Shown: positions 2,522 to 36,903 of the stretch, in pieces
Layout of the letters: every line of letters starts with the position of its first letter
How positions within the stretch are numbered: position 1 is the stretch's first letter
IMG/VR virus record: IMGVR_UViG_3300021141_000029
Span: 1-37,061 of that record
Length of the DNA: 37,061 nucleotides
Direction: 5' to 3' (one strand)
Origin: a virus
The notes under the pieces: generated by a model
Databases searched by the model: none
Seen by the model: the letters and a program-made list of their open reading frames with translations, nothing else
What the model was told of the DNA's origin: nothing
Position numbers and translations under genes: made by a program

Positions 2522-3244
2522 ATGCCTCTGAACAATCCCGCATTTCGCGCCGCCGGAAAGATCTACCCGAGCCGGTTCGTCACGATCGATGGTGGCACAA
2601 TCGCTGACTTCACCGTCCTGCAAGCCAATGGCGGGGGTTCCCCGCTGATTGGTATCTGCCAAGACGGCAGCAAGTTGGTTCCAGGCGTTCAGGCCCGGAC
2701 CACCGCTGACCTGTACGCCGCCGATGTCAATGACCCCATTCAGGTCTACGGCGAGACCGATGTTTGCTTGGTCTGGAACGGCAACGCCGACATCAAGGCC
2801 GGTGACCTGCTGACCGCTGACGCTGAAGGACGCGCCGTCAAGGCCGGCGATGGCGACTGGGTTGGAGCGATTGCCCTCGAGCATTGCAAAGCTTCCAACG
2901 CGGTCTACGGCAACCTCTGCCGGGTGCAGGTCAAATTCCTGAAGGGTGGAGGTGTCGCCGCTCCCGGAGTTGCCGGCGCCCCGACCGTCACCTTGGTGAA
3001 TCCATCCGAGGTTTTCGCCAACAGCGGCGTGAAGGCCATCCAGATCCTGGGCACCAACTTCACCGCTGACGGCGATGTGCTGGTCGATGGCGAGTCAATG
3101 GCCGCCAAGGGCGAGTACCAGTTCGTCGGTGCCACCGAAGTCCGCTTCGGTCTGGACACCAGCACCCTGACCTCCGGCGTTTTTGTTGCCGTCACCCTCA
3201 AGGCGGCCGGTGGCGAAGCCCCCTGCCAAGTCCAAGTCAAGTAA
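2522..3244 (+). CDS. Putative capsid decoration protein with C-terminal IPT/TIG domain
   Basis: The 240-aa protein sits directly before the major capsid gene, the usual place for a head decoration or stabilising protein. Its first ~145 residues (AAGKIYPSRFVTIDGG, DPIQVYGETDVCLVWNG, IKAGDLLTADAEGRAVKAG) look like the small beta-rich DUF2190-type or decoration-type fold. From about residue 150 there is an Ig-like TIG domain: PTVTLVNPSEVFANSG, IQILGTNFTADGDVLVDGE, then a Val-rich strand. TIG domains on capsids are thought to project outward and bind surface sugars or partners. Translation starts at ATG 2522 behind AAGGAGG, which overlaps the stop of the protease gene. A similar TIG-like segment ends the collagen-like fibre at 13440-15170. 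Confidence 0.65.
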   Translation: MPLNNPAFRAAGKIYPSRFVTIDGGTIADFTVLQANGGGSPLIGICQDGSKLVPGVQARTTADLYAADVNDPIQVYGETDVCLVWNGNADIKAGDLLTADAEGRAVKAGDGDWVGAIALEHCKASNAVYGNLCRVQVKFLKGGGVAAPGVAGAPTVTLVNPSEVFANSGVKAIQILGTNFTADGDVLVDGESMAAKGEYQFVGATEVRFGLDTSTLTSGVFVAVTLKAAGGEAPCQVQVK

Positions 3245-10717: not shown

Positions 10718-10747
10718 CCGGGCTAATGCCCAATGGAGACTCAGGCT

Positions 10748-11404
10748 ATGGACGAGAGTGTGTATTTCTATGACGGCACCAAGTGGGTGGACCTCAAGGG
10801 TCCTGCTGGTGTCGCTGGTGCTGAAGGCCCTGCCGGTGCTGAAGGCCCAGCAGGCCCTGCCGGTGCAGAAGGCCCATCAGCCTATGATTCCGCCGTTGCT
10901 GGTGGTTTCACCGGCACCGAGGCTGAATGGCTTGCCACCCTGGTCGGCCCTGCCGGACCCGAAGGGCCTCAGGGTATCCAGGGCGTTGAGGGCCCGATGG
11001 GTACTCAGGGCATTGGCATCCGCTACATCGACACCGTGCAGAATGAGGCCGCTCTGCCCGCCACTTCCGCCCAAGGTGACCTGTATGTGGTCTCCGAACC
11101 GGCCCCGCCTCGAGGCTTTGTCTACGAAGAATCCACCTCCAGCTGGAGAGATGCCGGACCCGTGCAAGGTCCTCCGGGCGTTGCGGGACCACAAGGCATC
11201 CAGGGCGAAGCTGGCCCCGCTGGCGAAGCGGGTCCAACCGGCGCTGATGGCGCTCAGGGCATTCAGGGCGAGGTCGGTCCTGCTGGCCCTGAAGGTCCTC
11301 AGGGTATCGCCGGAACCAGCATCAATGTCTATGGTCCTCAGCCGGATGCCCCCGCGGCTCCCCTGAAGGGCGACTTCTGGTTGAAGACTACTGTCGTACG
11401 GTAA
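10748..11404 (+). CDS. Collagen-like tail fibre protein (218 aa)
   Basis: ATG 10748 is preferred (GGAGA 8 bases upstream); an in-frame ATG at 10733 overlaps that site. The protein starts with the shared fibre module (VYFYDGTKWVDL) and then has two Gly-X-Y tracts. The first (GPAGVAGAEGPAGAEGP onward) is interrupted by a short AEWLATLVG segment. A globular insert (about residues 90-140, GDLYVVSEPAPPRGFVYEES) precedes the second tract. It ends in a beta segment containing GDFWLK. Collagen-like triplets form trimeric rods in phage fibres. The gene sits between two other fibre genes and is probably co-expressed with them. Confidence 0.75.
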   Translation: MDESVYFYDGTKWVDLKGPAGVAGAEGPAGAEGPAGPAGAEGPSAYDSAVAGGFTGTEAEWLATLVGPAGPEGPQGIQGVEGPMGTQGIGIRYIDTVQNEAALPATSAQGDLYVVSEPAPPRGFVYEESTSSWRDAGPVQGPPGVAGPQGIQGEAGPAGEAGPTGADGAQGIQGEVGPAGPEGPQGIAGTSINVYGPQPDAPAAPLKGDFWLKTTVVR

Positions 11405-25023: not shown

Positions 25024-25851
25024 TCAATCTGTGCAGTGGCAGGGTAGTGTGTCATCGTCAGGGAAGCGGAACTCTTGTTGGGATTCCGCCATCTGGATCA
25101 ATCCGCGGTAGGAGGGTCGGTCTGAACGAAACCGGCCAATCTTGGCGGTGCCATCCTCCTTCCGCCCGATGGCCCGCTCTTCACGGCTGGCCCACCATTC
25201 CAAGGACCCCGCGTCTTCCTTGGCAATCCTCTGAATCTTGTCCCTTCCCTTCAGGAAGCAACCCACGCAGTTACCGAGTAGGCGGGGAATGCCAAGCCGG
25301 AATGGATGCTCTTGCCAGAAGCGTTCCACGTCCTCCAGGGTGTGGCGGGCATGGTACATGGGGCAATCGACCTCGTTGCGCCTACTGTTGGACTTGATCC
25401 GGGTCACCCGGTGCGGCTCGTCATAGCGCAGACCGACCACCTCGGTGTGCCCATCGTTAAACCCAAGGGTTTCTGCCCACCGATCAATGGTGCGAATCTT
25501 CAGTTCCACTGTGCAGAACCTAGTCACAGGGTTGGGCAGGTACTGCCGCTCCTCCACCAGGATGTCAAACGGCTCCCCGTTGCGGCTGGCGGTCTCGTAG
25601 GTGACCTCCACCCAAGACTTCTTGGGGCGGTACTCCAGCCAATGGACCTTGACTCCCCAGTTCTGCTCCACATCCCGGATGAATTCCAAGGTGGCAGGGT
25701 GTTCCAGACCGGTGTTGGCGAAGACCACCTTGATGTCGTCGGGCAGCGTTCCTCCATAAGCCCGCAAAACCTGCCACAGCATGAATCCGCTGGTGGCTCC
25801 ACCCGAGAACGAGATGATCCCGGGGGTGTCAATCCGGTAGTGGTCAATCAT
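25024..25851 (-). CDS. PAPS-reductase-family / adenine nucleotide alpha-hydrolase-like protein
   Basis: The 275-aa product has the family PP-loop SFSGGATSG (residues 14-22) that binds ATP or an adenylyl sulfate. It also shows the typical downstream blocks: FANTGLEHPATLEFI, VTRFCTVELKIRTIDRW, VGLRYDEPHRV, FRLGIP and LGNCVGCFLKGRDK. The Cys pair in GNCVGC, with the earlier FCT and DCP Cys, could hold a metal or Fe-S centre. ATG 25851 overlaps the exonuclease stop by 8 bases; an upstream extension reads as Arg/Gly-rich noise. Related phage proteins are often annotated CysH-like and are suspected in nucleic-acid thiolation or sulfur metabolism; the substrate here is unknown. It is co-transcribed with a sigma-like factor and YqaJ exonuclease. 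Confidence 0.8.
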   Translation of the reverse strand: MIDHYRIDTPGIISFSGGATSGFMLWQVLRAYGGTLPDDIKVVFANTGLEHPATLEFIRDVEQNWGVKVHWLEYRPKKSWVEVTYETASRNGEPFDILVEERQYLPNPVTRFCTVELKIRTIDRWAETLGFNDGHTEVVGLRYDEPHRVTRIKSNSRRNEVDCPMYHARHTLEDVERFWQEHPFRLGIPRLLGNCVGCFLKGRDKIQRIAKEDAGSLEWWASREERAIGRKEDGTAKIGRFRSDRPSYRGLIQMAESQQEFRFPDDDTLPCHCTD

Positions 25852-26407
25852 TCCACCACCCCCTTGCCCGCGCCGCCTGCCTAGCCTTGTCAAAAAGGTT
25901 TTCCTGCATGGCCGTGTCAGCATCCACCCGGACGATGGCGAGTTGCTCCTCATGGCGCGGAGTGTCAGGGAAAAACGAGGCGAACAGCATGGACTGATGA
26001 CCCATGACTAACATCTGCCAGTTCACCTGGGGACGGTAATAGTCTACCACCTCCCCACCTAAGGCCATCTCGTGGACCTTCCAGCTTGGGCACTTGATCT
26101 CGACGATGATCTTGTGGTCGTCACTGATACCGTCCAGACTCGCCCGCAAGAACTTGTACTGAGCGTGCTGGAAACACCCGGGGCGGATCCAGCACTGGGT
26201 CGTCTCAATGAACCTCATGCGGGCGGCGGGTTCCAGCGCGGTGCCCCTTGCCATGCGGGCGTTGGGGGCTTTCTCCATCTTCAGCTTCTTGAGCCCCCCG
26301 AAGAACCCGGCCATCTGGCAGGCATCACTGCTGCCGAAACCCTCGTCACGCCAACGGCTCCAAGCCTCACTGCCCTGCTCCAGACCCTTCAGTTCTTCAG
26401 CGTTCAT
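25844..26407 (-). CDS. YqaJ / lambda-exonuclease-like recombination nuclease
   Basis: The 187-aa protein carries the YqaJ exonuclease pattern. It begins with QGSEAWSRWRDEGFGSSDA (substrate loop and Ser-Ser), then ARGTALEPAARMRF with Glu59. Next come LRASLDGIS with Asp92, the E-x-K motif in VEIKCP (Glu103 and Lys105) and YRPQVNWQMLV with Gln127. These enzymes resect 5' strands of duplex ends so that an annealing protein can load; the RecT-like protein at 29126 is the likely partner. ATG 26407 is chosen because GGGAGG precedes it by 4 bases; it overlaps the sigma-like gene by 4 bases (ATGA). At 187 aa it is a little short for the family but contains all key residues. Confidence 0.85.
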   Translation of the reverse strand: MNAEELKGLEQGSEAWSRWRDEGFGSSDACQMAGFFGGLKKLKMEKAPNARMARGTALEPAARMRFIETTQCWIRPGCFQHAQYKFLRASLDGISDDHKIIVEIKCPSWKVHEMALGGEVVDYYRPQVNWQMLVMGHQSMLFASFFPDTPRHEEQLAIVRVDADTAMQENLFDKARQAARARGWWND

Positions 26408-27000
26408 GCTGCCTCCCATGTGATTCCGATTCGTCGAACCTTTTCGCGGAGACGATCCACCGCGTAGCAGACTGCCTGCCGGGACATGCCCACCTTGGCA
26501 CCGGTTTCGGTCATCGATAGCCCTGCCATCAGGTGTTTGCAGATCTTCTGATCACGTTTGCTGATGCCTGACATCACCCTTGCCACGGTTGCCCGGTCAT
26601 GCTCCCGGCGTACCCACCCGAAGTGGTCACCAGAGCAGGGAATGACGTTGGTCAGGTCCTCGATTGAGACGGTAGTGGAAGCGCGGCATTGGGCCTCCGA
26701 GTGACGCATGAGTTGCGTCCGAACTGCCCGTGCCTGCCACAGCAACCATGTGGTGAACGCACCCTTAGTCTTGTCGTACTTGTAGCCAGCGTGAACCACC
26801 CTGATGGTCAGCTCCGAAACGAACTCCTCAGGGCTGATACCCAGCGGTGGGCGAACCTTGTGGGCGGCCCAGAACAGCAATGCCGGTTGCCGCTGTAGTC
26901 TCTCCCGGACCCGTTGCCGCCCCCACTGCTTCTGGGCTTTCGTCGGCGCAGCTGCAACCTGGATTCCATCTAGACCTGTTTTTTCAGCACCCATCAGCAC
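26404..27000 (-). CDS. Sigma-70-family-like transcription factor
   Basis: The 198-aa product has the two-domain layout of a small sigma factor. A region-2-like block spans about residues 57-100 (PEEFVSELTIRVVHAGYKYD, KGAFTTWLLWQARAVRTQLMRH). A C-terminal HTH block resembling region 4 spans about 146-198 (ISKRDQKICKHLMAGLSMTE, TGAKVGMSRQAVCYAVDRL). GTG 27000 has AGGAA 7 bases upstream; ATG 26994 is the alternative. It would steer host RNA polymerase to phage promoters, probably late genes, or act as an HTH regulator if region 2 is not functional. It is the first gene of the leftward operon, and its upstream region is shared with the divergent integrase and contains GTTGACAAG and a TGACA/TGTCA inverted repeat. 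Confidence 0.7.
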   Translation of the reverse strand: MLMGAEKTGLDGIQVAAAPTKAQKQWGRQRVRERLQRQPALLFWAAHKVRPPLGISPEEFVSELTIRVVHAGYKYDKTKGAFTTWLLWQARAVRTQLMRHSEAQCRASTTVSIEDLTNVIPCSGDHFGWVRREHDRATVARVMSGISKRDQKICKHLMAGLSMTETGAKVGMSRQAVCYAVDRLREKVRRIGITWEAA

Positions 27001-27116
27001 ACCCGGATTCCTGTTGTTTTCCGTACCAGCAACCCAAACTACCCCCCTGCCGCCGGGTTGACAAGATGACAATATGTCACTGGGATACTTGCTCACACCC
27101 AAACGGAGGAGACCCG

Positions 27117-27986
27117 ATGACTATTAGGGAATTGTTGACCCGGATGCTGGCGGATAGGACTGACCTGAGAAGGACCACCAGGATCAGCTACCGGGTGGAA
27201 CTCCAACGGCTGGCCGACCTGTTCGATGTGGAACCTGAAACCCTGACCGCACCCAAGTTGGAGCGTTGGGCTGGCTCAAACCAGCTACGCCGCCGCACCC
27301 TGAAGACCCTGAAGAGCTTGCTGAACTGGGCGATGCGAGTCGGGCTGGTTGGGGCAAACCCGGTGGCTCCATGCAAGGGGCCCAAGGTCAAAACCTTGAC
27401 CAATCGCCCAGGCATTCACCGCGCATTGGAACTGCCCGCAGCATTCAGTAAGCCACGGGACAGGGCCCTCGTCACCTTCCTGCTTGATTCAGGCCTGAGG
27501 ATCCGCGAGGCATTGGGCCTAACATGGGACCGGGTGGACCTAACCAACCGCTCGGTGTTGGTGGACAGGGCGTTGGACACCCTGGGCCAGTTCCAAGGGC
27601 TCAAGGTGGATGGCGCCGAAAGGGACTTGATCTTGTCCGCCCGGACGGTGGCACTTCTGCGGGATATCCAGCCAAAGCTGAACCGCGGACCGGTGTTCCG
27701 CAACCGATTCGGTGGTCACCTCGATGCCCACAACTGGCACTGTCGGGCTTGGAAACCCGCCCTCCAACGGGCCGGGATATACCTCAGAATCCACGATCTA
27801 CGCCATGCCTGTGCCAGCCTCTTGCTTGAGGCGGGCTTGCCCATTGCCGCAGTCCAGCAACGCCTAGGACACTCCTCCATCGAAACCACCATGCGCCACT
27901 ACGCCCGCAGGTCGGCCAAGTTGAGCCGGGATGCCGCGTCCGCCATGGATGGGATTCTGGGTGGCCTAGGCAACACGGATTCCTGA
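27117..27986 (+). CDS. int: Tyrosine recombinase (integrase)
   Basis: The 289-aa protein starts at ATG 27117 behind GGAGGAG; the frame is open upstream but that part is not coding-like. Residues 1-90 form the core-binding (SAM-like) domain. The catalytic domain shows Arg128 in SGLRIREALGL, His226 and Arg229 in HDLRHA, His252 in RLGHSS and the nucleophile Tyr262 in MRHYAR; Lys is probably in the GLKVDGAERD beta hairpin. It integrates phage DNA at a host att site; the tRNA-Arg fragment and CCGGACAC repeats just downstream are the likely attP. No large N-terminal arm-binding domain is visible, so arm recognition may be limited or use the first ~30 residues. A terminator follows 82 bases after the stop. 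Confidence 0.9.
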   Translation: MTIRELLTRMLADRTDLRRTTRISYRVELQRLADLFDVEPETLTAPKLERWAGSNQLRRRTLKTLKSLLNWAMRVGLVGANPVAPCKGPKVKTLTNRPGIHRALELPAAFSKPRDRALVTFLLDSGLRIREALGLTWDRVDLTNRSVLVDRALDTLGQFQGLKVDGAERDLILSARTVALLRDIQPKLNRGPVFRNRFGGHLDAHNWHCRAWKPALQRAGIYLRIHDLRHACASLLLEAGLPIAAVQQRLGHSSIETTMRHYARRSAKLSRDAASAMDGILGGLGNTDS

Positions 27987-28994: not shown

Positions 28995-29081
28995 ACTTGA
29001 CAGGTTGACAAGTCACGGCTTGCAAACCTGCCTGCCTGAACCCAGAATCCTGTGACCACCTGTACCCAGTCACCGTGACTG
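28995..29081. promoter_or_regulatory. Divergent regulatory region with two palindromes
   Basis: ACTTGACAGGTTGACAAGT (28995-29013) is an imperfect palindrome (7 of 9 pairs) containing GTTGACAAG, which recurs upstream of the integrase and of the 36412 gene. CAGTCAC/GTGACTG (29067-29081) is a perfect 7-bp inverted repeat with a single central C. They lie between the RHH gene and the RecT-like gene and are likely operators; TTGACA at 29005-29010 could be a -35 element. Confidence 0.5.
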
Positions 29082-29125
29082 AATACGCCGGTTGGTACGC
29101 TAGTGAACATGTTTGGGAAAAAAAT

Positions 29126-29776
29126 ATGAATCAACCTGTCACCACGGATTTGGCCATCGTGCCGAGTCCGCAACCGAGTAACCAGGAGTCGAAACCGGCT
29201 CCTACCGCCAACGAGCTAGTCGCGGCCAACGCAGTCAAGAGCGGCATGTACAAGGGCCTGACGGTCAGCACGGCCCTGATGATTCTGCAAATGGCCGAGG
29301 AGCTTCAGATTCCTGCCGCCCAAGCCCTTGGCAGCATCCACATCGTGCAGGGCAAGCTGGTGCTGTCTGCCACCCTGCTGGGTGCGTTGGTGCAGCGTTC
29401 AGGGAGCTTTGACTACCGGGTCACAGAAAACACGGACAAGGCCGCCGAGGTGGAAATCTTGCGCCGGGTGGATGGTGCGTGGGCATCGGTTGGCAAATTC
29501 CGGTTCAGCATTGAGATGGCCAAGCGGGCTGAGTTGCTTGGCAAGTCCGTCTGGAAACAGTACCCCGAGGCGATGCTGTTCTCGCGGGCCCTGACCGCAG
29601 CAATCCGCATGTTCGCGCCTTCACTCACAGTGGTCGCCTGCTACACGCCTGAGGAGGCTGAGACATTTGACAGCCCGCAGCGTTTTGGTGGTCAACAACC
29701 CACCCGTCGCATGACGGAATCAGAAGCGGGCCAGATGGCCAGCATGGTCAACGGCGTGCGTGAGGCCAACTCCTAA
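29126..29776 (+). CDS. RecT-like single-strand annealing protein
   Basis: The 216-aa protein starts at ATG 29126, preceded by TGGGA. It resembles a branch of the RecT/Red-beta superfamily. Central blocks include GMYKGLTVSTALMILQMAEEL, PAAQALGSIHIVQGKLVLSA (typical 'known from phage recombinases' beta-hairpin) and TLLGALVQRSGSFDYRVTE. Later come VWKQYPEAMLFSRALTAAIR, with the invariant-looking W-x-x-(Y)P-x-x-M-x-x-(A/S)RA, and VVACYTPEEAE. Such proteins anneal complementary single strands made by a 5'-3' exonuclease; the YqaJ nuclease at 25844-26407 is the natural partner. It heads the rightward early operon, behind palindromic operators, and is followed by a large hairpin. Confidence 0.75.
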   Translation: MNQPVTTDLAIVPSPQPSNQESKPAPTANELVAANAVKSGMYKGLTVSTALMILQMAEELQIPAAQALGSIHIVQGKLVLSATLLGALVQRSGSFDYRVTENTDKAAEVEILRRVDGAWASVGKFRFSIEMAKRAELLGKSVWKQYPEAMLFSRALTAAIRMFAPSLTVVACYTPEEAETFDSPQRFGGQQPTRRMTESEAGQMASMVNGVREANS

Positions 29777-29885: not shown

Positions 29886-30329
29886 ATGTCTCTAAGCATC
29901 GGATATCACCGCGCAAAGATCATGACCACCGCAGTTGCGGTACGCAACGACTCACGATGGGTCGAACTAGAAGTGTTCACGGAAGGTGGTGAACAGGTGC
30001 TGGTGAAGCTGTACCTCACCCAGCGTGCCCTGCCGTGGACCCAGCAGAAGTTGGAGCGTCTTGGCTTCAAGGATTCGTTGGCCAGCATTGCAGGCAACCG
30101 CTCCATGCTTACCGGTCTGGTCGTGGACCTGCGGGCAAAGGAGGGCAAATCCCCACGCAACGATGGTGGGTTCTGGCCTGAGTACGAGGTCTACCTGCCG
30201 AAGTCAAAGGCAACAGCCCCTGCTCAGGACCTGCCTGATGGTGAGCTACCCACCGAGGGTCGCTTGACTGAGGCGCAACTGGGAGCCCTGGAGGACGAGG
30301 TTGGCGGGTTTGACTGGGGGGTCAAATGA
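29886..30329 (+). CDS. Unrecognised early protein, possibly ssDNA-binding (147 aa)
   Basis: The N-terminal ~100 residues are beta-rich (RWVELEVFTEGGEQVLVKLYL, SMLTGLVVDLRAK, WPEYEVYLPK). A Pro-rich linker and an acidic C-terminus follow, ending in EDEVGGFDWGVK. An OB-like beta domain with an acidic, aromatic-containing tail would suit a single-stranded DNA binding protein acting with the annealing protein before it, but I do not recognise a family. AGGA lies upstream of ATG 29886. It overlaps the next gene by 4 bases (ATGA). Confidence 0.55.
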   Translation: MSLSIGYHRAKIMTTAVAVRNDSRWVELEVFTEGGEQVLVKLYLTQRALPWTQQKLERLGFKDSLASIAGNRSMLTGLVVDLRAKEGKSPRNDGGFWPEYEVYLPKSKATAPAQDLPDGELPTEGRLTEAQLGALEDEVGGFDWGVK

Positions 30330-30868
30330 TGTTCGGCACTGACGACCGCCCCAGGTGGATCCAGAAGCACAATGCCTACTTCGGCGCTCGTTTCACGACC
30401 GGGATCTATCAGGAATGGACTGAGATCTTGGTGCGTGAGATGGGAGCCACCGGAGACGCGCTGCTCGAGGCGGTCAACCAGATGATCCGACATGGCCAGA
30501 AGGGTTTCGTGGAGGACCACCTTCGTTCTTTGCAGTCCCATGTGGCGAAGAACTGCGGCGGTTGCACCACATGCAACGGGAGGGGCCTTGTTGAGGTTCC
30601 CAACCGCGGACCTAGGCGTGATCAGCTACCTCTCATCTCGTTCAGCTGCGGGTGTCCGCGTGGTGTGCAGGTGAGGGTGAGCAAGTATTCCGATGCTGGC
30701 CTTCTCTCAGAATATGAGGACAGGTACGGCAGCGGGTGGCGGGATGAGCCAAGGAGGGCCATCCAGTCCATTAACGTGGGCGAAATCACCCCGGGCAACA
30801 TGGGGGCAGCTTTCCGCATGATTGTGGAACTGGCCAAACGATCTCAGGAGAGTGCCCTTGTCTCCTGA
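30326..30868 (+). CDS. Zn-finger-containing early protein (180 aa)
   Basis: The first ~85 residues look helical (IYQEWTEILVREMGATGDALL, FVEDHLRSLQSHVAKN). Residues ~87-130 hold a DnaJ-like zinc motif: NCGGCTTCNGRG, then later SFSCGCPRG. The remainder is helical (NMGAAFRMIVELAKRSQ). Helix plus zinc motif in an early operon between recombination and replication genes recalls helicase-loader or replisome-organiser partners, but no P-loop is present and the family is not recognised. It is coupled to both neighbours: ATGA overlap upstream and an 11-base overlap with the next TTG start. Confidence 0.55.
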   Translation: MMFGTDDRPRWIQKHNAYFGARFTTGIYQEWTEILVREMGATGDALLEAVNQMIRHGQKGFVEDHLRSLQSHVAKNCGGCTTCNGRGLVEVPNRGPRRDQLPLISFSCGCPRGVQVRVSKYSDAGLLSEYEDRYGSGWRDEPRRAIQSINVGEITPGNMGAAFRMIVELAKRSQESALVS

Positions 30869-31040: not shown

Positions 31041-31160
31041 TTGGCAGGGCATGGCAAGGCGGTGCAATGCGGGGCATGGCAAGGCTAGGAGCGGCATGGC
31101 TCGGCATGGCCGGGCTGGGCTGGGCATGGCCGGGCTCGGCACGGCGGGGCGAGGCAAGGT
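31041..31160 (+). repeat. Period-5 NNGGC array A (24 units)
   Basis: From 31041 to 31160 the sequence divides into 24 consecutive pentamers, and 20 of them end in GGC (for example ATGGC, AAGGC, CGGGC, TGGGC). The exceptions are GGTGC, AATGC, TAGGA and the last unit AAGGT. The register never slips across 120 bases. Translation gives only low-complexity Gly/Ala/Trp/Arg sequences in all frames, so it is not a gene. It runs directly into structured RNA element A. Confidence 0.85.
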
Positions 31161-31218
31161 GGTTGAACTTAGCGGCATCTCGGGTTGCAAGCGCCCGGAC
31201 AACCTATCCCGAAAGGGA
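31161..31218 (+). ncRNA. Structured RNA element, copy A
   Basis: P1 pairs GGTTG (31161-31165) with CAACC (31200-31204). P2 pairs TCGGG (31180-31184) with CCCGG (31194-31198). Between P1 and P2 lies a one-sided joining strand with ACTTAGCGGCA; the P2 loop contains TGCAAGC. CTT-A-GC in the joining strand can pair with GCAAG in the loop, giving a pseudoknot with one bulged A. P3 is TCCC/GGGA (31207-31218) closed by GAAA. Copy B has the same unpaired sequences but different, still complementary, stems. Transcription is inferred from its place inside the early operon. Confidence 0.65.
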
Positions 31219-31221
31219 AGC

Positions 31222-31281
31222 GCGGCAGGGAGTGGCTGGGCTTGGCGTGGCTTGGCTGGGATTGGCTGGGCAAGGCAAGGT
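31222..31281 (+). repeat. Period-5 NNGGC array B (12 units)
   Basis: Twelve pentamers in one register (31222-31281), nine ending in GGC (GTGGC, TGGGC, TTGGC, AAGGC and others), ending again in AAGGT just before RNA element B. It is shorter and more T-rich than array A, so the two were not copied very recently. Confidence 0.8.
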
Positions 31282-31341
31282 GGTCGGACTTAGCGGCACT
31301 GGAGTGCAAGCCTCCAGACGACCTATCCCCCACTTCGGGGG
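31282..31341 (+). ncRNA. Structured RNA element, copy B
   Basis: P1 pairs GGTCG (31282-31286) with CGACC (31319-31323). P2 pairs CTGGAG (31299-31304) with CTCCAG (31312-31317) around TGCAAGC. P3 pairs CCCCC (31327-31331) with GGGGG (31337-31341). The joining strand GACTTAGCGGCA and the loop are as in copy A, while P1 changes a T-A pair to C-G and P2 changes at several pairs with complementarity kept. It ends 30 bases before the start of the next gene and could act in that gene's leader. Confidence 0.65.
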
Positions 31342-31371
31342 CGTTTGGTTACTTGGGAAGTGAGGCAAAAG

Positions 31372-32004
31372 ATGGCAGTGGTCGAAGCGGTCAAGAGCGA
31401 CACCAGGACAAAGATGATTCGGAGGCGTGTATGTCTGCGCGGGATCAAAGCGGCGATGTTCGACAGATACCCGGGCGACAATCAGACCAAGCTGGAGTGG
31501 TGGCAGAAGGTCTATCTGCACCCCAAGAGGGGGGCAATCTCTTTGCCAGCGATGAACATCAGTTCGTTGTTATCTGCCCACAATACCAACTCCGCCCCAA
31601 AACGCCTGCGTGACAAGCGGAAGTACAAGGATATCGCTAACGCCTGCCTGAGCTTTGTGATGATCTCGGCGGAAGACGGCGGTGACTACATCCCCTTTTT
31701 GCGTGACGGCAAACCCATCCACATGGGAACCATCGCTCCCAACCAGTCCGAGGACCCACTGTCCGGGATCAGTCTGCACCGTATCGTGGCGCGGCTGGAC
31801 AAGGGTATTCCCAACCCGAAGGAGCGGCCCCTCCTCCCTTGTCCGTGGGAACTGCGTTTCATCCTGGAGATCATCCCCAACCGGGAGATCAAGGAACAAG
31901 AAATCAAGAACCTGATTGAGGAGGCCGGTCTGGCGATTGGCATCGGAACCTTCCGCGGTGTACACGGCAAGTATGTCGTGGATGAGTGGTCTGAGCTTCC
32001 ATGA
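31372..32004 (+). CDS. Unrecognised early protein (210 aa)
   Basis: ATG 31372 has GAGG about 6 bases upstream and lies 30 bases after the second structured RNA element; the frame extends to 31345 without a ribosome site. The product is basic at the N-terminus (TRTKMIRRRVCLRGIKAAMFD) and contains mixed alpha/beta segments (LEWWQKVYLHPKRGAISLPA, YKDIANACLSFVMISAEDGGD). The C-terminal part has a helix and strand (IKEQEIKNLIEEAGLAIGIG, GKYVVDEWSEL). I recognise no catalytic motif. Its position between recombination and nuclease genes suggests a DNA-related early function, and the RNA elements in its leader suggest post-transcriptional control. Confidence 0.6.
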   Translation: MAVVEAVKSDTRTKMIRRRVCLRGIKAAMFDRYPGDNQTKLEWWQKVYLHPKRGAISLPAMNISSLLSAHNTNSAPKRLRDKRKYKDIANACLSFVMISAEDGGDYIPFLRDGKPIHMGTIAPNQSEDPLSGISLHRIVARLDKGIPNPKERPLLPCPWELRFILEIIPNREIKEQEIKNLIEEAGLAIGIGTFRGVHGKYVVDEWSELP

Positions 32005-32141: not shown

Positions 32142-32678
32142 ATGATGAAGCCACATCCGACATTTGAACGCCTGCATGAGGTGTTTGTTTATGAGGCGGA
32201 AACAGGACTGCTGTTGTGGAGGATCCGAGCTTCACAAAGCATTCTTCCTGGAATGCCTGCGGGAACCATAGACCGCAAGGGCTACCGCGTTACTTGTTTG
32301 GACCGCATGTTCCTTAAAAATCACCGGATCATCTGGGCCATGTACCACGGCGAGTGGCCTGAGGATGGCATGGTGGTGAACCACAAGGATCATAACCCTT
32401 CCAACAACCGGATTGAGAATCTGGAACTAGCTACTGCCGCACAAAATAATTGTCACAGGTCTGGCCCGACATCGTTGAGTACCAGTGGTGTGCGTGGAGT
32501 TTCCAAGGTTAAACAGACTGGGAAGTGGCGTGCCGCTATCACGGCCAACAAGAAGAGCATCTACCTAGGTGTCTTCAAGACGATTGAGGAGGCCATTGCC
32601 GCCCGTGAGGCAGCGGGCCTGAAATACCACGGCCAGCACCAGGGCAGGTTATTCAAGGAGGCAACAACCAATGGGTAA
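32142..32678 (+). CDS. HNH homing endonuclease with AP2 domain
   Basis: The 178-aa protein starts with a short N-terminal motif (FVYEAETGLLLWRIR) common in this family. An HNH core at about residues 60-100 follows (NHRIIWAMYHGEWPE, VNHKDHNPSNNRIENLELAT), with the His-Asn-His metal and catalytic residues. An AP2-like DNA-binding domain lies at about 115-165 (SGVRGVSKVKQTGKWRAAI, YLGVFKTIEEAIAAREAA). Such free-standing enzymes cut a target site and spread by repair. It overlaps the next gene by 8 bases. The 136-base spacer before it (32005-32141) has a CCCGG/CCGGG hairpin and no gene. A paralogue sits at 36412-36903. Confidence 0.85.
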   Translation: MMKPHPTFERLHEVFVYEAETGLLLWRIRASQSILPGMPAGTIDRKGYRVTCLDRMFLKNHRIIWAMYHGEWPEDGMVVNHKDHNPSNNRIENLELATAAQNNCHRSGPTSLSTSGVRGVSKVKQTGKWRAAITANKKSIYLGVFKTIEEAIAAREAAGLKYHGQHQGRLFKEATTNG

Positions 32679-33033
32679 GTTCAGCAGGGACAAGGGGGCG
32701 AGAGCCGAAAGAAAGACGGTTGAACTCCTTGAGGGCCTTGGTTTCAAGGCCCAGCGTATCCCCTTGTCCGGGGCCGCTGGTGGTTACTTCAAAGATGACA
32801 TCCTCGTCAAGTTGCCTAATGGCTTGCTGGTGAGGGCTGAAGTTAAATCAAGAGCCAACGCAGAGGGCTGGCAGACCCTGAAGCGGTGGATGGGTGAGAG
32901 CGACATGCTGTTCCTCATTGAGGACCGCACCAAGCCGTTGGTGGTGCTGCCGTGGTCTTCCTGGGAGACCATTGTGGACATGATTCCTACGCCTGAGTTG
33001 CCCATGGGTGAAGTTGGCGAGGTGCCGCAATGA
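32671..33033 (+). CDS. Hjc-like PD-(D/E)xK nuclease (putative Holliday junction resolvase)
   Basis: The 120-aa protein begins GKFSRDKGARAERKTVELLEG with Glu13, continues with GFKAQRIPLSGAAGG and KDDILVK (Asp43), and has the E-x-K pair in RAEVKSR (Glu57, Lys59). This order matches archaeal Hjc-type resolvases and related PD-(D/E)xK nucleases. It would cleave branched DNA intermediates from recombination or replication before packaging. It overlaps the HNH gene by 8 bases and the next gene by 4 bases (ATGA), inside the early operon. Confidence 0.75.
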   Translation: MGKFSRDKGARAERKTVELLEGLGFKAQRIPLSGAAGGYFKDDILVKLPNGLLVRAEVKSRANAEGWQTLKRWMGESDMLFLIEDRTKPLVVLPWSSWETIVDMIPTPELPMGEVGEVPQ

Positions 33034-33350
33034 CTGGACGCATGAAGCCGATCAACCGCATCTTGTCAGCTTGGTCAGATTCGGGTGTGCCCCAGACTGC
33101 TGCCAAGTTCTTGGCCCGCACCAACCCTGACGACCCTGAGCTGCAGTCCTGCATTCGCAAGCTCACCAAGATGTCTGACCCAACTGCCCACGCACTTCAG
33201 AGGGAGTTGGACTACTTCATGGGGCCTGATGATATTACCTCGCACCGATACCACGGTGACGCGGGCAAAAACAGCCGGATAGTGGTGATGCGGATTCGTG
33301 GTGTCAACCAACTGAACCGTTACCACGTGACGACCCACATGGGGAAGTAG
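33030..33350 (+). CDS. Unrecognised early protein (106 aa)
   Basis: The 106-aa protein is coupled to the nuclease gene through an ATGA overlap. It is basic and probably helical in the first 65 residues (INRILSAWSDSGVPQTAAKFL, DPELQSCIRKLTKM, HALQRELDYFM), with a beta-like, Arg/His-rich end (SRIVVMRIRGVNQLNRYHVTTHMG). It could be a DNA-binding accessory protein. No family is recognised. A hairpin lies between its stop and the next gene. Confidence 0.55.
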   Translation: MTGRMKPINRILSAWSDSGVPQTAAKFLARTNPDDPELQSCIRKLTKMSDPTAHALQRELDYFMGPDDITSHRYHGDAGKNSRIVVMRIRGVNQLNRYHVTTHMGK

Positions 33351-33396
33351 GGAAGGACCGGCGCGGTTAGATCTTTTCCGCGAGACCCAATGCCCT

Positions 33397-33423
33397 GCCA
33401 CCAGAACCCGGACATCTGGTGGC
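33397..33423 (+). other. 8-bp hairpin upstream of the 33449 gene
   Basis: GCCACCAG (33397-33404) and CTGGTGGC (33416-33423) are perfect complements around an 11-base loop, followed by ccccattt. It may attenuate transcription between the nuclease genes and the putative replication gene or shield its ribosome site. Confidence 0.5.
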
Positions 33424-33448
33424 CCCCATTTAGACAGAGGAGCGCAGG

Positions 33449-34939
33449 ATGCAACCACTGAGCCATGACGGGATTGACTGGACACCCGGCCTTGACCACA
33501 TCGAGGAACCTGTCTCGGGGTGGGGGATCACCCGGCACTTGCGCCGAACCCCCTGCTACCGCCTACTCCAACTCATTGACGCGGGCAAGGTGCTGGATCA
33601 GTACGCCGCCGCTTGGCTCCTCTCATCCACCAATGGTGAACGCCCAGGCAAGCCGTCCCAGTACGGCGACGACCACGCCGACCGCCAATGGCTCTTCGGC
33701 AAAATCCCGCACCACCAGGTTCTCAACCTGACCCGCGAACTCAGCATTGTGGACACCCTGTGCGCCCGCCCCATACCCATCGATCCTGCCCTCTCAGGGC
33801 AATACCTGGAATCACTGGTGGACATCCTCAACGAGTTCCACCAACTCAAGGATGTCAAGTGCTGCCCGCACCTCTTTGACCCCAAGACCTTTCGCCCAAA
33901 CCGTGAGCGAATGCTTGGCATCGCCCGCCACCACACCAACAACCCCAAGCTTAAGTCGCTACGCCAAGCACTTCTCGCCATGCCCGACGACCCCCTACTG
34001 ACGCTCTTCCACGAGTACAGCCAAGCCTGGAACACCTACCGCCGCGCACTCAAGGTGGGCACCGCCATCCCACACGACATCTGCATCGATGAGATCGGCA
34101 TCACCCACAACAGGACACAGTTGTCACCTTCAGAGTTCCGCAGATTCGCCAGATTCGACAGTCCACTCACCTTTGCCAGTATCAACGGGTTGGAACTTAG
34201 CGAAGGAATGCGGACTGCCAATTTGGCAGGCACCAAGCTTGCCGACTGCCATTCTGTCGGTCAGTTGGGGAAAATGATCAAGGTGCGCTGCCATAATGGC
34301 AGGCGGGCAGAGCAGGTGGGGAGGTCGTTTCTGAGGGCGTTGGTGCTGGGGAGGGAGAAGTACCGGGTTGGGAGGGGCTGGGAGGGGGTTAGGGAGGCTG
34401 GAAGGGCGCTGGGGATCGAGGGTGACGTGTTTGCCGAGCCTTTGTGGCTGCGTGTGGGGCGTGCGTTGTTGAGTCCGAACCCTGAGGGGTTGCGGTGGAT
34501 GGACGACTACCTACCGGAGTTGCTGGAGCATGGGCGGCTGTTGTTCCCAGGGTCAGAAGTGGGGCTGGAGGAGCGTTGCTGGTCTGCGCTGGCGTTCCAC
34601 TGTGGTGACTTGGAGTTGATGCCGTACCTGCGTGACCCGGAGTTGCGTAAGCGGCTGGGGGCGTTGTTGGGTGGTACGCACCGGGCGTTGGGGCATGACG
34701 GGCGTGTGCTGGCGAACTGTCAGCGTTCCGAGATGGGGTTGTGGTCGGTGTATGGCAGTGTTGACTCGTTGGTGCGTCTGGCGGCGTTCAGGCTGGAGTT
34801 GGCGGGTGGCGTGGTGCGTGGCATCCGCGGTACGACCATTGCGGTGGAGGGGTTGGATCAGTGCCAGGTGGCGGAGTTGCTGCTGCTGGCCGGGTTTACT
34901 GACCTGACTATTGGCACGGGCGTTCGATGGGAGGTGTGA
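33449..34939 (+). CDS. Unrecognised 496-aa protein, candidate replication initiator
   Basis: ATG 33449 follows GAGGAG. The first ~250 residues look helical and DNA-binding-compatible (RHLRRTPCYRLLQLIDAGK, FRPNRERMLGIARHH, LSPSEFRRFARFDS). The second half is rich in Leu, Gly and Arg (KYRVGRGWEGVREAGRALG, ELRKRLGALLGG). I see no P-loop, polymerase or helicase motif. Codon use switches sharply in mid-gene: the first half prefers C-ending codons, the second G- and T-containing ones. The switch coincides with CTGCCAW palindromes at 34215-34302. An origin inside its own initiator gene is known from lambda O, so an initiator role is proposed from that parallel only. Confidence 0.6.
   Translation: MQPLSHDGIDWTPGLDHIEEPVSGWGITRHLRRTPCYRLLQLIDAGKVLDQYAAAWLLSSTNGERPGKPSQYGDDHADRQWLFGKIPHHQVLNLTRELSIVDTLCARPIPIDPALSGQYLESLVDILNEFHQLKDVKCCPHLFDPKTFRPNRERMLGIARHHTNNPKLKSLRQALLAMPDDPLLTLFHEYSQAWNTYRRALKVGTAIPHDICIDEIGITHNRTQLSPSEFRRFARFDSPLTFASINGLELSEGMRTANLAGTKLADCHSVGQLGKMIKVRCHNGRRAEQVGRSFLRALVLGREKYRVGRGWEGVREAGRALGIEGDVFAEPLWLRVGRALLSPNPEGLRWMDDYLPELLEHGRLLFPGSEVGLEERCWSALAFHCGDLELMPYLRDPELRKRLGALLGGTHRALGHDGRVLANCQRSEMGLWSVYGSVDSLVRLAAFRLELAGGVVRGIRGTTIAVEGLDQCQVAELLLLAGFTDLTIGTGVRWEV
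34215..34302. other. Candidate replication origin: CTGCCAW palindromes at the GC-skew switch
   Basis: CTGCCAA-T-TTGGCAG (34215-34229) and CTGCCAT-A-ATGGCAG (34288-34302) are perfect 7-bp palindromes, with a half site CTGCCAT at 34246-34252. Starts are 31 and 42 bases apart, close to three and four helical turns. An A-rich GGGGAAAATGATCAA stretch lies between. C-rich plus-strand sequence on the left turns G-rich on the right, the polarity expected of a bidirectional origin. Confidence 0.5.
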
Positions 34940-34940
34940 C

Positions 34941-35327
34941 ATGGGCAGCATGAACCGGCGGAAGCATCTGACGATGGAACAGGTGTGTTGGTGGTGGGCG
35001 GGCAGCAAGTGCTTCAAGTCCTACCGCGAGGTGCGGTTGATGATGGTGAACAAGGTGCGGCTGGGTCACTTCCCCAAGCCGTCCAGGAAGCTGAGCAGCA
35101 ACATCACGCTGTGGGCTCTGGCGGACCTGAGGAAGTGGTTGTTGTCAGAGCAGGAGCGGTTGTGCGGTCTGCGTGACCGACTAATCGCCTGGGACAGGGA
35201 GGACAGCTATGGGTGGTGGTCAGATGATCGGCCTGAAGGAACTTCAGACCCTGCTGGGGATCAGCCGCCAGGCGGTGTACGCGGGGATCCGCCGGGGAAA
35301 GCTGCCCCCCGCGACGGTGCGGACTGA
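34941..35327 (+). CDS. Unrecognised Trp-rich basic protein (128 aa), C-terminus uncertain
   Basis: ATG 34941 has GGAGG 6-7 bases upstream, which overlaps the previous stop region. The first ~85 residues look real: a basic, Trp-containing helical domain (MEQVCWWWAGSKCFKSYREV, LWALADLRKWLLSEQERL). The last ~40 residues (DRPEGTSDPAGDQPPGG onward) overlap the next gene by 119 bases and look like an out-of-frame reading of it. Either the true protein has a disordered tail or a frame change truncates it near 35200. It may be a DNA-binding accessory of replication; no family recognised. Confidence 0.5.
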   Translation: MGSMNRRKHLTMEQVCWWWAGSKCFKSYREVRLMMVNKVRLGHFPKPSRKLSSNITLWALADLRKWLLSEQERLCGLRDRLIAWDREDSYGWWSDDRPEGTSDPAGDQPPGGVRGDPPGKAAPRDGAD

Positions 35328-35604
35328 GGACGGGCGAGTCTGGTGGAACCGGGTGGACATCGAGGCGTGCATCGCTGAGCGCAAGCCCGCGGCCCGCCTT
35401 CTGGCGGAGCGTGAGGGTGCCATTCCAATCCTGGTGGGTGCTGATGGTGCGCTGGTGGGTGTGTCTGACCTGGATGGTCAGGTGGTGACGGTCTATGACG
35501 AACACCTGCTGGCAGTCCTGCTGAAACGCCGCGGAATGAAGGACCCAGGTGCGTTCATCCGCGGTCTGAGGGACAGCGGGCCAGTCTTCATCAGGAGGAA
35601 CTGA
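35209..35604 (+). CDS. Excisionase-type HTH DNA-binding protein (131 aa)
   Basis: ATG 35209 has GGGAGG about 7 bases upstream. Residues ~6-35 form a helix-turn-helix of the excisionase/MerR type (LKELQTLLGISRQAVYAGI, RRGKLPPATV), followed by a wing (DGRVWWNRVDIEACIAE). The remaining ~75 residues (GAIPILVGADGALVGVSDLDG, VVTVYDEHLLAVLLKRRG) form a second beta/alpha domain. It may regulate early genes or, with the integrase, control excision. It ends one base before the GTG start of the Zn-ribbon gene. Confidence 0.65.
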   Translation: MGGGQMIGLKELQTLLGISRQAVYAGIRRGKLPPATVRTEDGRVWWNRVDIEACIAERKPAARLLAEREGAIPILVGADGALVGVSDLDGQVVTVYDEHLLAVLLKRRGMKDPGAFIRGLRDSGPVFIRRN

Positions 35605-36329: not shown

Positions 36330-36380
36330 TTGTCAACCTTCGCCACCCAGTTGACAAGCCTTTTGGCGTACCGGTATGAT
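36330..36380 (+). promoter_or_regulatory. Sigma70-type promoter overlapped by an 8-bp inverted repeat
   Basis: TTGACA (36351-36356) and TATGAT (36375-36380) are spaced by 18 bases, a near-consensus promoter. TTGTCAAC (36330-36337) and GTTGACAA (36350-36357) form a perfect inverted repeat whose right arm covers the -35 element, as expected for a repressor operator. The HNH gene at 36412 follows. Confidence 0.7.
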
Positions 36381-36411
36381 TGCGTACCAGTCTAACCAGG
36401 AGGGTGAAGGC

Positions 36412-36903
36412 ATGACAGCGGAAGAGTGGCGGGCGTTGGTTGAGTATCGAGACGGGTTTCTCTACTGGCGGGTGCGCCCAAGTCGGTCGGTCTTTGCGGG
36501 AGACCAAGCCGGTGGTAACGGCGGTGATGGGTACTGGTCAGTCAAATACCGCGGCCAAAAGTATATGTATCACCGCGTTATCTGGATGGTTTGCAACGGT
36601 GACCTGCCTGCCGGGTCTTGCATTGATCACATTGACCGTGACCCCTTCAACAACCGCATCGAGAACCTGAGGCTGGCCACCATGTCGCAGAACCATTTCA
36701 ATACCCTCAAGAGGCTGTCCAGCTTCAGCAGTACCTTCAAGGGGGTACATCGTGACACACGTCCTGGCAGAAAGCCCTGGAATGTCTATCTCATGGCCAA
36801 TGGCAAGAGGTACTACCTGGGCAGCTTCGACCACGAGGAGGAGGCCGCGGGCGCCTACGCGGAAGCCGCCCTTGCCCTGCATGGGGAGTTCGCAGCGTTC
36901 TGA
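36412..36903 (+). CDS. HNH homing endonuclease with AP2 domain, second copy
   Basis: ATG 36412 has AGGAGGG about 8 bases upstream; an in-frame ATG at 36376 lies inside the promoter -10 and is rejected. The 163-aa protein has the N-terminal YRDGFLYWRVRPSRS motif and an HNH core (KYMYHRVIWMVCNGD, CIDHIDRDPFNNRIENLRLAT). An AP2-like end follows (FKGVHRDTRPGRKPWNVYLM, YYLGSFDHEEEAAGAYAEAA). It is a diverged paralogue of 32142-32678. It has its own promoter and terminator, so it is an independent unit, consistent with a mobile gene. Confidence 0.85.
   Translation: MTAEEWRALVEYRDGFLYWRVRPSRSVFAGDQAGGNGGDGYWSVKYRGQKYMYHRVIWMVCNGDLPAGSCIDHIDRDPFNNRIENLRLATMSQNHFNTLKRLSSFSSTFKGVHRDTRPGRKPWNVYLMANGKRYYLGSFDHEEEAAGAYAEAALALHGEFAAF

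Follow-up and report, generated by a model that had tools for sequence, protein, structure and literature searches.

Within the window, by which we mean the whole stretch of DNA analysed (IMG/VR record IMGVR_UViG_3300021141_000029, 37,061 bp), strand composition inverts abruptly inside a single reading frame, at a cluster of three dyad-symmetric sites. We consider it probable that the interval 34215-34302 is the core of a bidirectional, intragenic, iteron-type replication origin within the gene at 33449-34939. An origin at 34.2 kb would explain the polarity of the switch, its position, the mirror symmetry of the GC and AT composition, and the shared iterons. The features of the locus are:

33449-34939, plus strand: reading frame with the composition switch, a single open frame of 496 aa; candidate initiator gene
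33530-34214, plus strand: C/A-rich left arm (A.23, C.38, G.22, T.17)
34187-34302: support interval of the switch and proposed origin core, from the change point and the keto minimum at 34186
34215-34229: site 1, perfect dyad CTGCCA-ATT-TGGCAG
34246-34260: site 2, imperfect dyad with two mismatches, like the imperfect sites of locus L090
34288-34302: site 3, perfect dyad CTGCCA-TAA-TGGCAG
34303-35490, plus strand: G/T-rich right arm, strongest beside the sites and fading by about 35.5 kb
34941-35327, plus strand: downstream reading frame of 128 aa, beginning just past the 33449 stop; a weak excisionase-like match (E 0.011) only
35209-35604, plus strand: HTH_17/excisionase-like DNA-binding protein of 131 aa (PF12728, E 7.7e-7; phrog_66, E 1.4e-7)

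Strand composition and dyad sites of the 33449 frame

Inside the reading frame GC skew passed from -0.28 to +0.42, and keto (G+T) skew flipped in parallel. The base counts reported by the first-pass annotation, 26 C and 11 G at 33721-33780 and 32 G and 7 C at 34321-34380, were exact on recount. Its placing of the change from C-rich to G-rich near 34250 also held, as did the C-to-G polarity of a bidirectional origin that it had read there: the greatest GC-skew step of the window (+0.69 between adjacent 600-bp blocks) fell at 34220-34260, and the maximum-likelihood change point within the frame at 34255, with a 2-log-unit interval of 34187-34302. The keto step was +0.59 at 34250, the next-best place in the window reaching 0.15, and a four-segment model set its bounds at 33530, 34260 and 35490. 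Codon shuffles of the frame (n = 1000) gave a mean step of 0.11 and a maximum of 0.29, against the observed 0.69. At four-fold sites the left part had C69 G25 A20 T12 (C.55, G.20, A.16, T.10) and the right part G75 T25 C11 A6 (G.64, T.21, C.09, A.05).

A coding-strand effect of gene orientation, already dismissed in the first-pass annotation, was rejected here as well, since both halves are coding in the same frame and on the same strand. GC by codon position was.61/.43/.76 on the left and.65/.47/.78 on the right, so that the coding-like order GC3>GC1>GC2 is kept in the same frame throughout. The ATG is preceded by a Shine-Dalgarno-like GAGGAG, and a minus-strand reading frame on the left looks out-of-frame. 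Low-complexity repeats were likewise rejected as a cause; the switch region has only one 20-bp two-copy repeat.

The strong skew was limited to about 33.53-35.49 kb, some 2 kb, and did not continue along the genome arms. On the right it stood at +0.58 in the initial 150 bp, had dropped to about 0.2 by 750-1350 bp and was 0 beyond, fading with distance and reaching into the following genes. In composition each arm is nearly the reverse complement of the other: the left arm differed by 0.14 from the reverse complement of the right and by 0.58 from the right as it stands, the background for the left-right comparison (321 pairs) having a mean of 0.08 and a maximum of 0.23. The right part was the most G-biased of the 33 gene stretches listed in the window, with the next downstream gene second. 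The four-fold C excess of the left arm (0.47) was matched by 2522-3244 (0.52) and 10733-11404 (0.54), so that most of the anomaly lies in the right arm; the excess of A over T on the left was matched in the window by 26847-27986 only. Among 510 reading frames of at least 340 aa, drawn from 2.87 Mb of partly redundant sequence that included the window, this frame ranked first with 0.72, followed by 0.52, the 99th percentile lying at 0.36. In a test of whole sequences (n = 269) the switch of the window again ranked first, ahead of L161 (-0.61).

The change-point interval coincides with three sites of the type CTGCCA-N3-TGGCAG, at 0.51-0.57 of the length of the frame. The first-pass annotation had described two palindromes and a half site spaced by 31 and 42 bases; these were found to start at 34215, 34246 (the imperfect one) and 34288, spacings near three and four helical turns at 10.5 bp per turn. 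Site 1 is read as TANLAG, site 2 as DCHSVG and site 3 as RCHNGR. Two codon registers are thus in use, one at site 1 and the other at sites 2 and 3, which indicates that the DNA is kept and not a repeated peptide. A same-arm 6+3+6 pair within 120 bp arose in 1 of 5000 codon shuffles and in 1 of 5000 synonymous permutations, which makes chance palindromes unlikely, and sites 1 and 3 form the sole same-arm pair within 150 bp in the window (spacers of 0-7). Around the sites we detected no AT-rich unwinding element, AT being at most 52% per 50 bp, and near them no DnaA box.

The same dyad in other sequences

IMG/VR was scanned for two copies of the dyad, which returned 15 stretches with gaps of 45-75 and 107 with gaps of 5-35; 115 motif loci from the scans (90 + 25) were classified. 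In 77 of them (62 + 15) some copies lay exactly 29 bp apart, often many per contig, and these loci seem to form a repeat class of their own. L085, L164, L171, L199 and others have a 44-bp element made of two CTGCCA-N3-TGGCAG dyads whose starts lie exactly 29 bp from each other; it repeats at intervals of about 1 kb in some contigs, and L085 has 12 dyad copies within 5 kb.

Four of the 38 loci outside the 29-bp class, among which the same virus occurs twice in two cases (L083/L092 and L086/L088), had the array within a replication-initiator gene of another viral contig recognised by PHROGs:

L090: array in an O-like gene (phrog_678, E 1.7e-7)
L091: array in a replisome organizer/DnaD-like gene, adjoining a DnaB-like helicase (phrog_13246, E 2.1e-8)
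L193: array in an O-like/DnaD-like initiator gene (PHROGs, E 4.5e-22)
L244: array in an O-like/DnaD-like initiator gene (PHROGs, E 8.3e-16)

These arrays held 2-5 sites at 0.25-0.52 of the gene, mostly spaced by 17-23 bp, with spacings of 35 and 43 in L090 and 45 in L244. Over its array L193 encodes PANLAG and CQNG/CQIG, where the window has TANLAG and CHNG. Three more loci lay in long reading frames, one low-complexity (L082), one repetitive (L096) and one an intein-bearing ribonucleotide reductase (L094); the rest of the 38 had reading frames below about 210 aa or none. Arrays in initiator genes, whose enrichment is uncalibrated against other arms, support the proposed origin without proving it, because any dyad used by phages may turn up in some initiator genes.

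A within-gene skew switch was absent from all four motif-bearing initiator genes. Nor was a switch seen in eight O-like regions chosen among phage and plasmid records, whose genes also lack the dyad motif, so that the switch is so far peculiar to the phage of the window. In three of ten records (G007, G010, G014) no more than about 300 bp separated the array from the cumulative GC minimum, and in seven the distance was greater; in G006, G009 and G013 the local skew around the array was of opposite sign. The arrays of G010 and G014 lie between divergent genes, and gene orientation can explain the skew there.

The dyad pair was absent from 398 Pseudomonadota genomes and the perfect dyad from the HTH_36 loci of bacteria (L103-L132). 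No one protein common to all motif-bearing records was found, and a literature search with the letters of the dyad gave no related match. O-like genes carry other repeats: L103 has four copies of GTTTCGTCC within 600 bp, and the O-like regions L264-L270 have repeated TPEAAS/TPAKS peptides. From these the sequence of the iterons seems to vary, while their mid-gene place recurs.

Genes around the locus and the genomic setting

The 33449 protein had no match in Pfam, PHROGs or NCBIfam, and no relatives were obtained by tblastn in phages and plasmids or by peptide-seeded scans of viral_contigs and genome_contigs. Aligned by hhalign with three O-like proteins it reached a probability of 1.1%, which indicates no O-like domain, and its AF2 single-sequence model had a pLDDT of 36. 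For the 34941 frame likewise no relatives were obtained. The product of 35209 is an alternative candidate binder of the dyads. No helicase or helicase-loader gene was recognised among the tested reading frames on both sides, where 30326-30868 and 33030-33350 are without assignment.

The record is classed as linear and is without end repeats, and is therefore probably a fragment. Its left part has scaffold, head-tail and tail-fibre-like genes; together with the integrase and the RecE-like, RecT-like and resolvase-like genes, these mark the source as a tailed and probably temperate phage. Genes with assignments that bear on this setting are:

26847-27986: integrase (PF00589, E 4.6e-24)
29075-29776, plus strand: RecT-like annealing protein, upstream of the locus in the replication/recombination region (phrog_561, E 1.1e-19)
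32671-33033, plus strand: Holliday-junction-resolvase-like nuclease (phrog_23036, E 4.6e-10)

A sigma-factor-like frame at 26404-27102 (minus strand; phrog_351, E 2.3e-8) overlaps, on the opposite strand, the 5' end of the listed integrase frame, and a phosphoadenosine-phosphosulfate-reductase-like protein is encoded at 25024-25953 (minus strand; phrog_424, E 4e-49). HNH endonucleases at 32142-32678 and 36376-36903 (PF13392, with weak AP2-domain matches) stand on either side of the origin region and look like free-standing homing endonucleases. A close relative, G001 (IMGVR_UViG_3300042431_000999, 36,468 bp), is 99.1% identical across 329-31329 of the window. It departs from the window left of 329 and ends near 31.3 kb, at the repeat tracts described below, perhaps through an assembly break at repeats; as it ends before the locus at 33449-34939, it is uninformative there.

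The region 31.0-32.0 kb (31043-31350 with the gene 31345-32004) is probably a VIPR RNA-guided system, with a Vipr gene and vrRNA repeats. Such systems have been described, in a 2026 preprint (PMC13142463), as a Vipr RAMP protein with vrRNAs made of GGY/NN repeats; our assignment was made by architecture, from the description in that preprint. Two GGCNN/GGANN tandem tracts, with ends near 31158 and 31279, lie just upstream of the gene, each followed by a similar tail (GTGGTYGRACTTAGCGGCA...) in which, by eye, GGTTG/CAACC and GGTCG/CGACC pairs are kept. Relatives of the gene were present at 68 loci in viral contigs; 63 of these had tracts within 1 kb, and all 127 tracts were on the gene's own strand. 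GGCNN-type tracts were absent from 190 control loci (1.74 Mb). An Rfam search gave no match, single-sequence folding of the tails was not significant, and the vrRNA spacers had no convincing target among the sequences of this analysis.

Possible causes of the switch and comparison with known systems

If the locus is an origin, the dyad-symmetric iteron array would be bound by a phage initiator, for which the 33449 protein itself is a candidate, and replication would start at the array and run both ways. In early bubbles the displaced strand, plus to the right and minus to the left, would be exposed as a single strand for long enough to be deaminated at C and A, with C turning to T and A being read as G; this would enrich the right in G and T and the left in C and A. 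What we observed is the composition, the place where it changes, and the arrays of the same dyad in O-like/DnaD-like initiator genes of other contigs; that an initiator binds here and starts replication, which protein it is, and the deamination are inferred. The extent of about 2 kb is unlike ordinary fork asymmetry, which led us to suppose short early bubbles with exposed displaced strands, and since A is as depleted as C, single-strand deamination fits better than cytosine deamination alone.

The origin proposed by the first-pass annotation is favored by a switch that has the polarity of an origin and its centre at the sites. On a cumulative plot of the whole window, which is an incomplete record, the keto minimum lies at 34186 (-732), whereas the minimum of GC skew alone is at 29955 (-328, compared with -254 at 34.2 kb). 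Against an origin speak the 33449 protein, which has neither an O-like domain nor relatives, the lack of an AT-rich element, a DnaA box and a recognised helicase gene, the short reach of the skew, and a C excess on the left that stays within the range of other genes. Most of the 38 motif loci lie outside initiator genes, and the motif-bearing initiators are without the switch.

Divergent transcription would be expected to leave the same base signature. The dyads would then be operators of a bidirectional promoter in the gene, and the non-template strands, exposed by a sense transcript to the right and an antisense transcript to the left, would become skewed alike. The arrays of G010 and G014, which lie between divergent genes as operators would and near the cumulative skew minimum, are in line with this. 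However, a scan of 33300-35300 for one promoter type, sigma-70-like, returned none where 0.2 were expected, the left side has no leftward gene, its minus-strand frame looking out-of-frame, and as strong a switch occurred in no other compared sequence (510 reading frames, 269 sequences). We regard this explanation as unlikely, with little besides the promoter scan counting against it.

A mosaic gene, made of segments of opposite history joined in frame near 34.25 kb or with one of them inverted, appears slightly more unlikely still. In its favor, phage genomes are mosaic, G001 parts from the window on the left side and stops short of the locus, and of the two arms the right is by far the more unusual. 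A random join, however, would not be expected to give an intact frame, mirror-symmetric arms, a right arm that fades into the next genes, or dyads at the join, and the symmetry, the fading and the dyads make it the less likely event. Some other site-specific transaction at the dyads, such as recombination, partition or nicking, might expose strands or bias repair locally. Dyad arrays serve many proteins, and the phage encodes an integrase and the excisionase-like 35209 product; the mid-gene place and the shared motif nevertheless point to initiator genes and not to att sites, and we hold this for improbable.

A further-reaching form of the origin reading, which we find doubtful and offer tentatively, is that 33449 founded a new initiator family that has taken over iterons otherwise serving O-like initiators, and that its origin, for much of the time a paused two-way bubble, scars its own gene. 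In the short paused bubble the displaced strands would mutate fast and leave a mirror-image compositional scar in the gene. If the locus is an origin as proposed, short two-way initiation bubbles would leave a readable scar, the sequence by itself could serve to map phage origins and even the size of the bubbles, replication initiation would gain a protein family that has no relatives, and one iteron sequence would be common to unrelated initiators. Should the origin reading fail, a very clear intragenic switch of strand composition is still there that needs a local explanation.

The precedent of lambda, invoked in the first-pass annotation, holds in that the same dyad is arrayed in four O-like/DnaD-like genes, but 33449 itself is not recognisably O-like. 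According to the account in PMC4488673, the lambda origin lies within gene O and comprises four iterons of 19 bp, next to a strand-asymmetric segment rich in AT; the O protein has known relatives, and P adjoins. Compared with lambda as described there, the window likewise has dyad iterons mid-gene in a replication region, and its C-to-G polarity fits a bidirectional start. It differs in having three sites, two perfect and one imperfect, at the wider spacing of 31 and 42 bp, in being without the AT-rich segment or an O-like domain, and in an asymmetry that extends over about 2 kb.

With L090, L091, L193 and L244 the window shares intragenic CTGCCA-N3-TGGCAG dyads, some of them read in matching codon registers (ANLAG; CQNG versus CHNG). 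Unlike the window, those genes are recognisable initiators with mostly closer spacing and no skew switch. In the strand asymmetry of mitochondria, the presumed displaced strand is poor in A and C and rich in G and T. The proposed displaced strands of the window are depleted and enriched in the same way, but where mitochondria have one displaced strand genome-wide, the window has a pair of mirrored arms, about 0.7 and 1.2 kb long.
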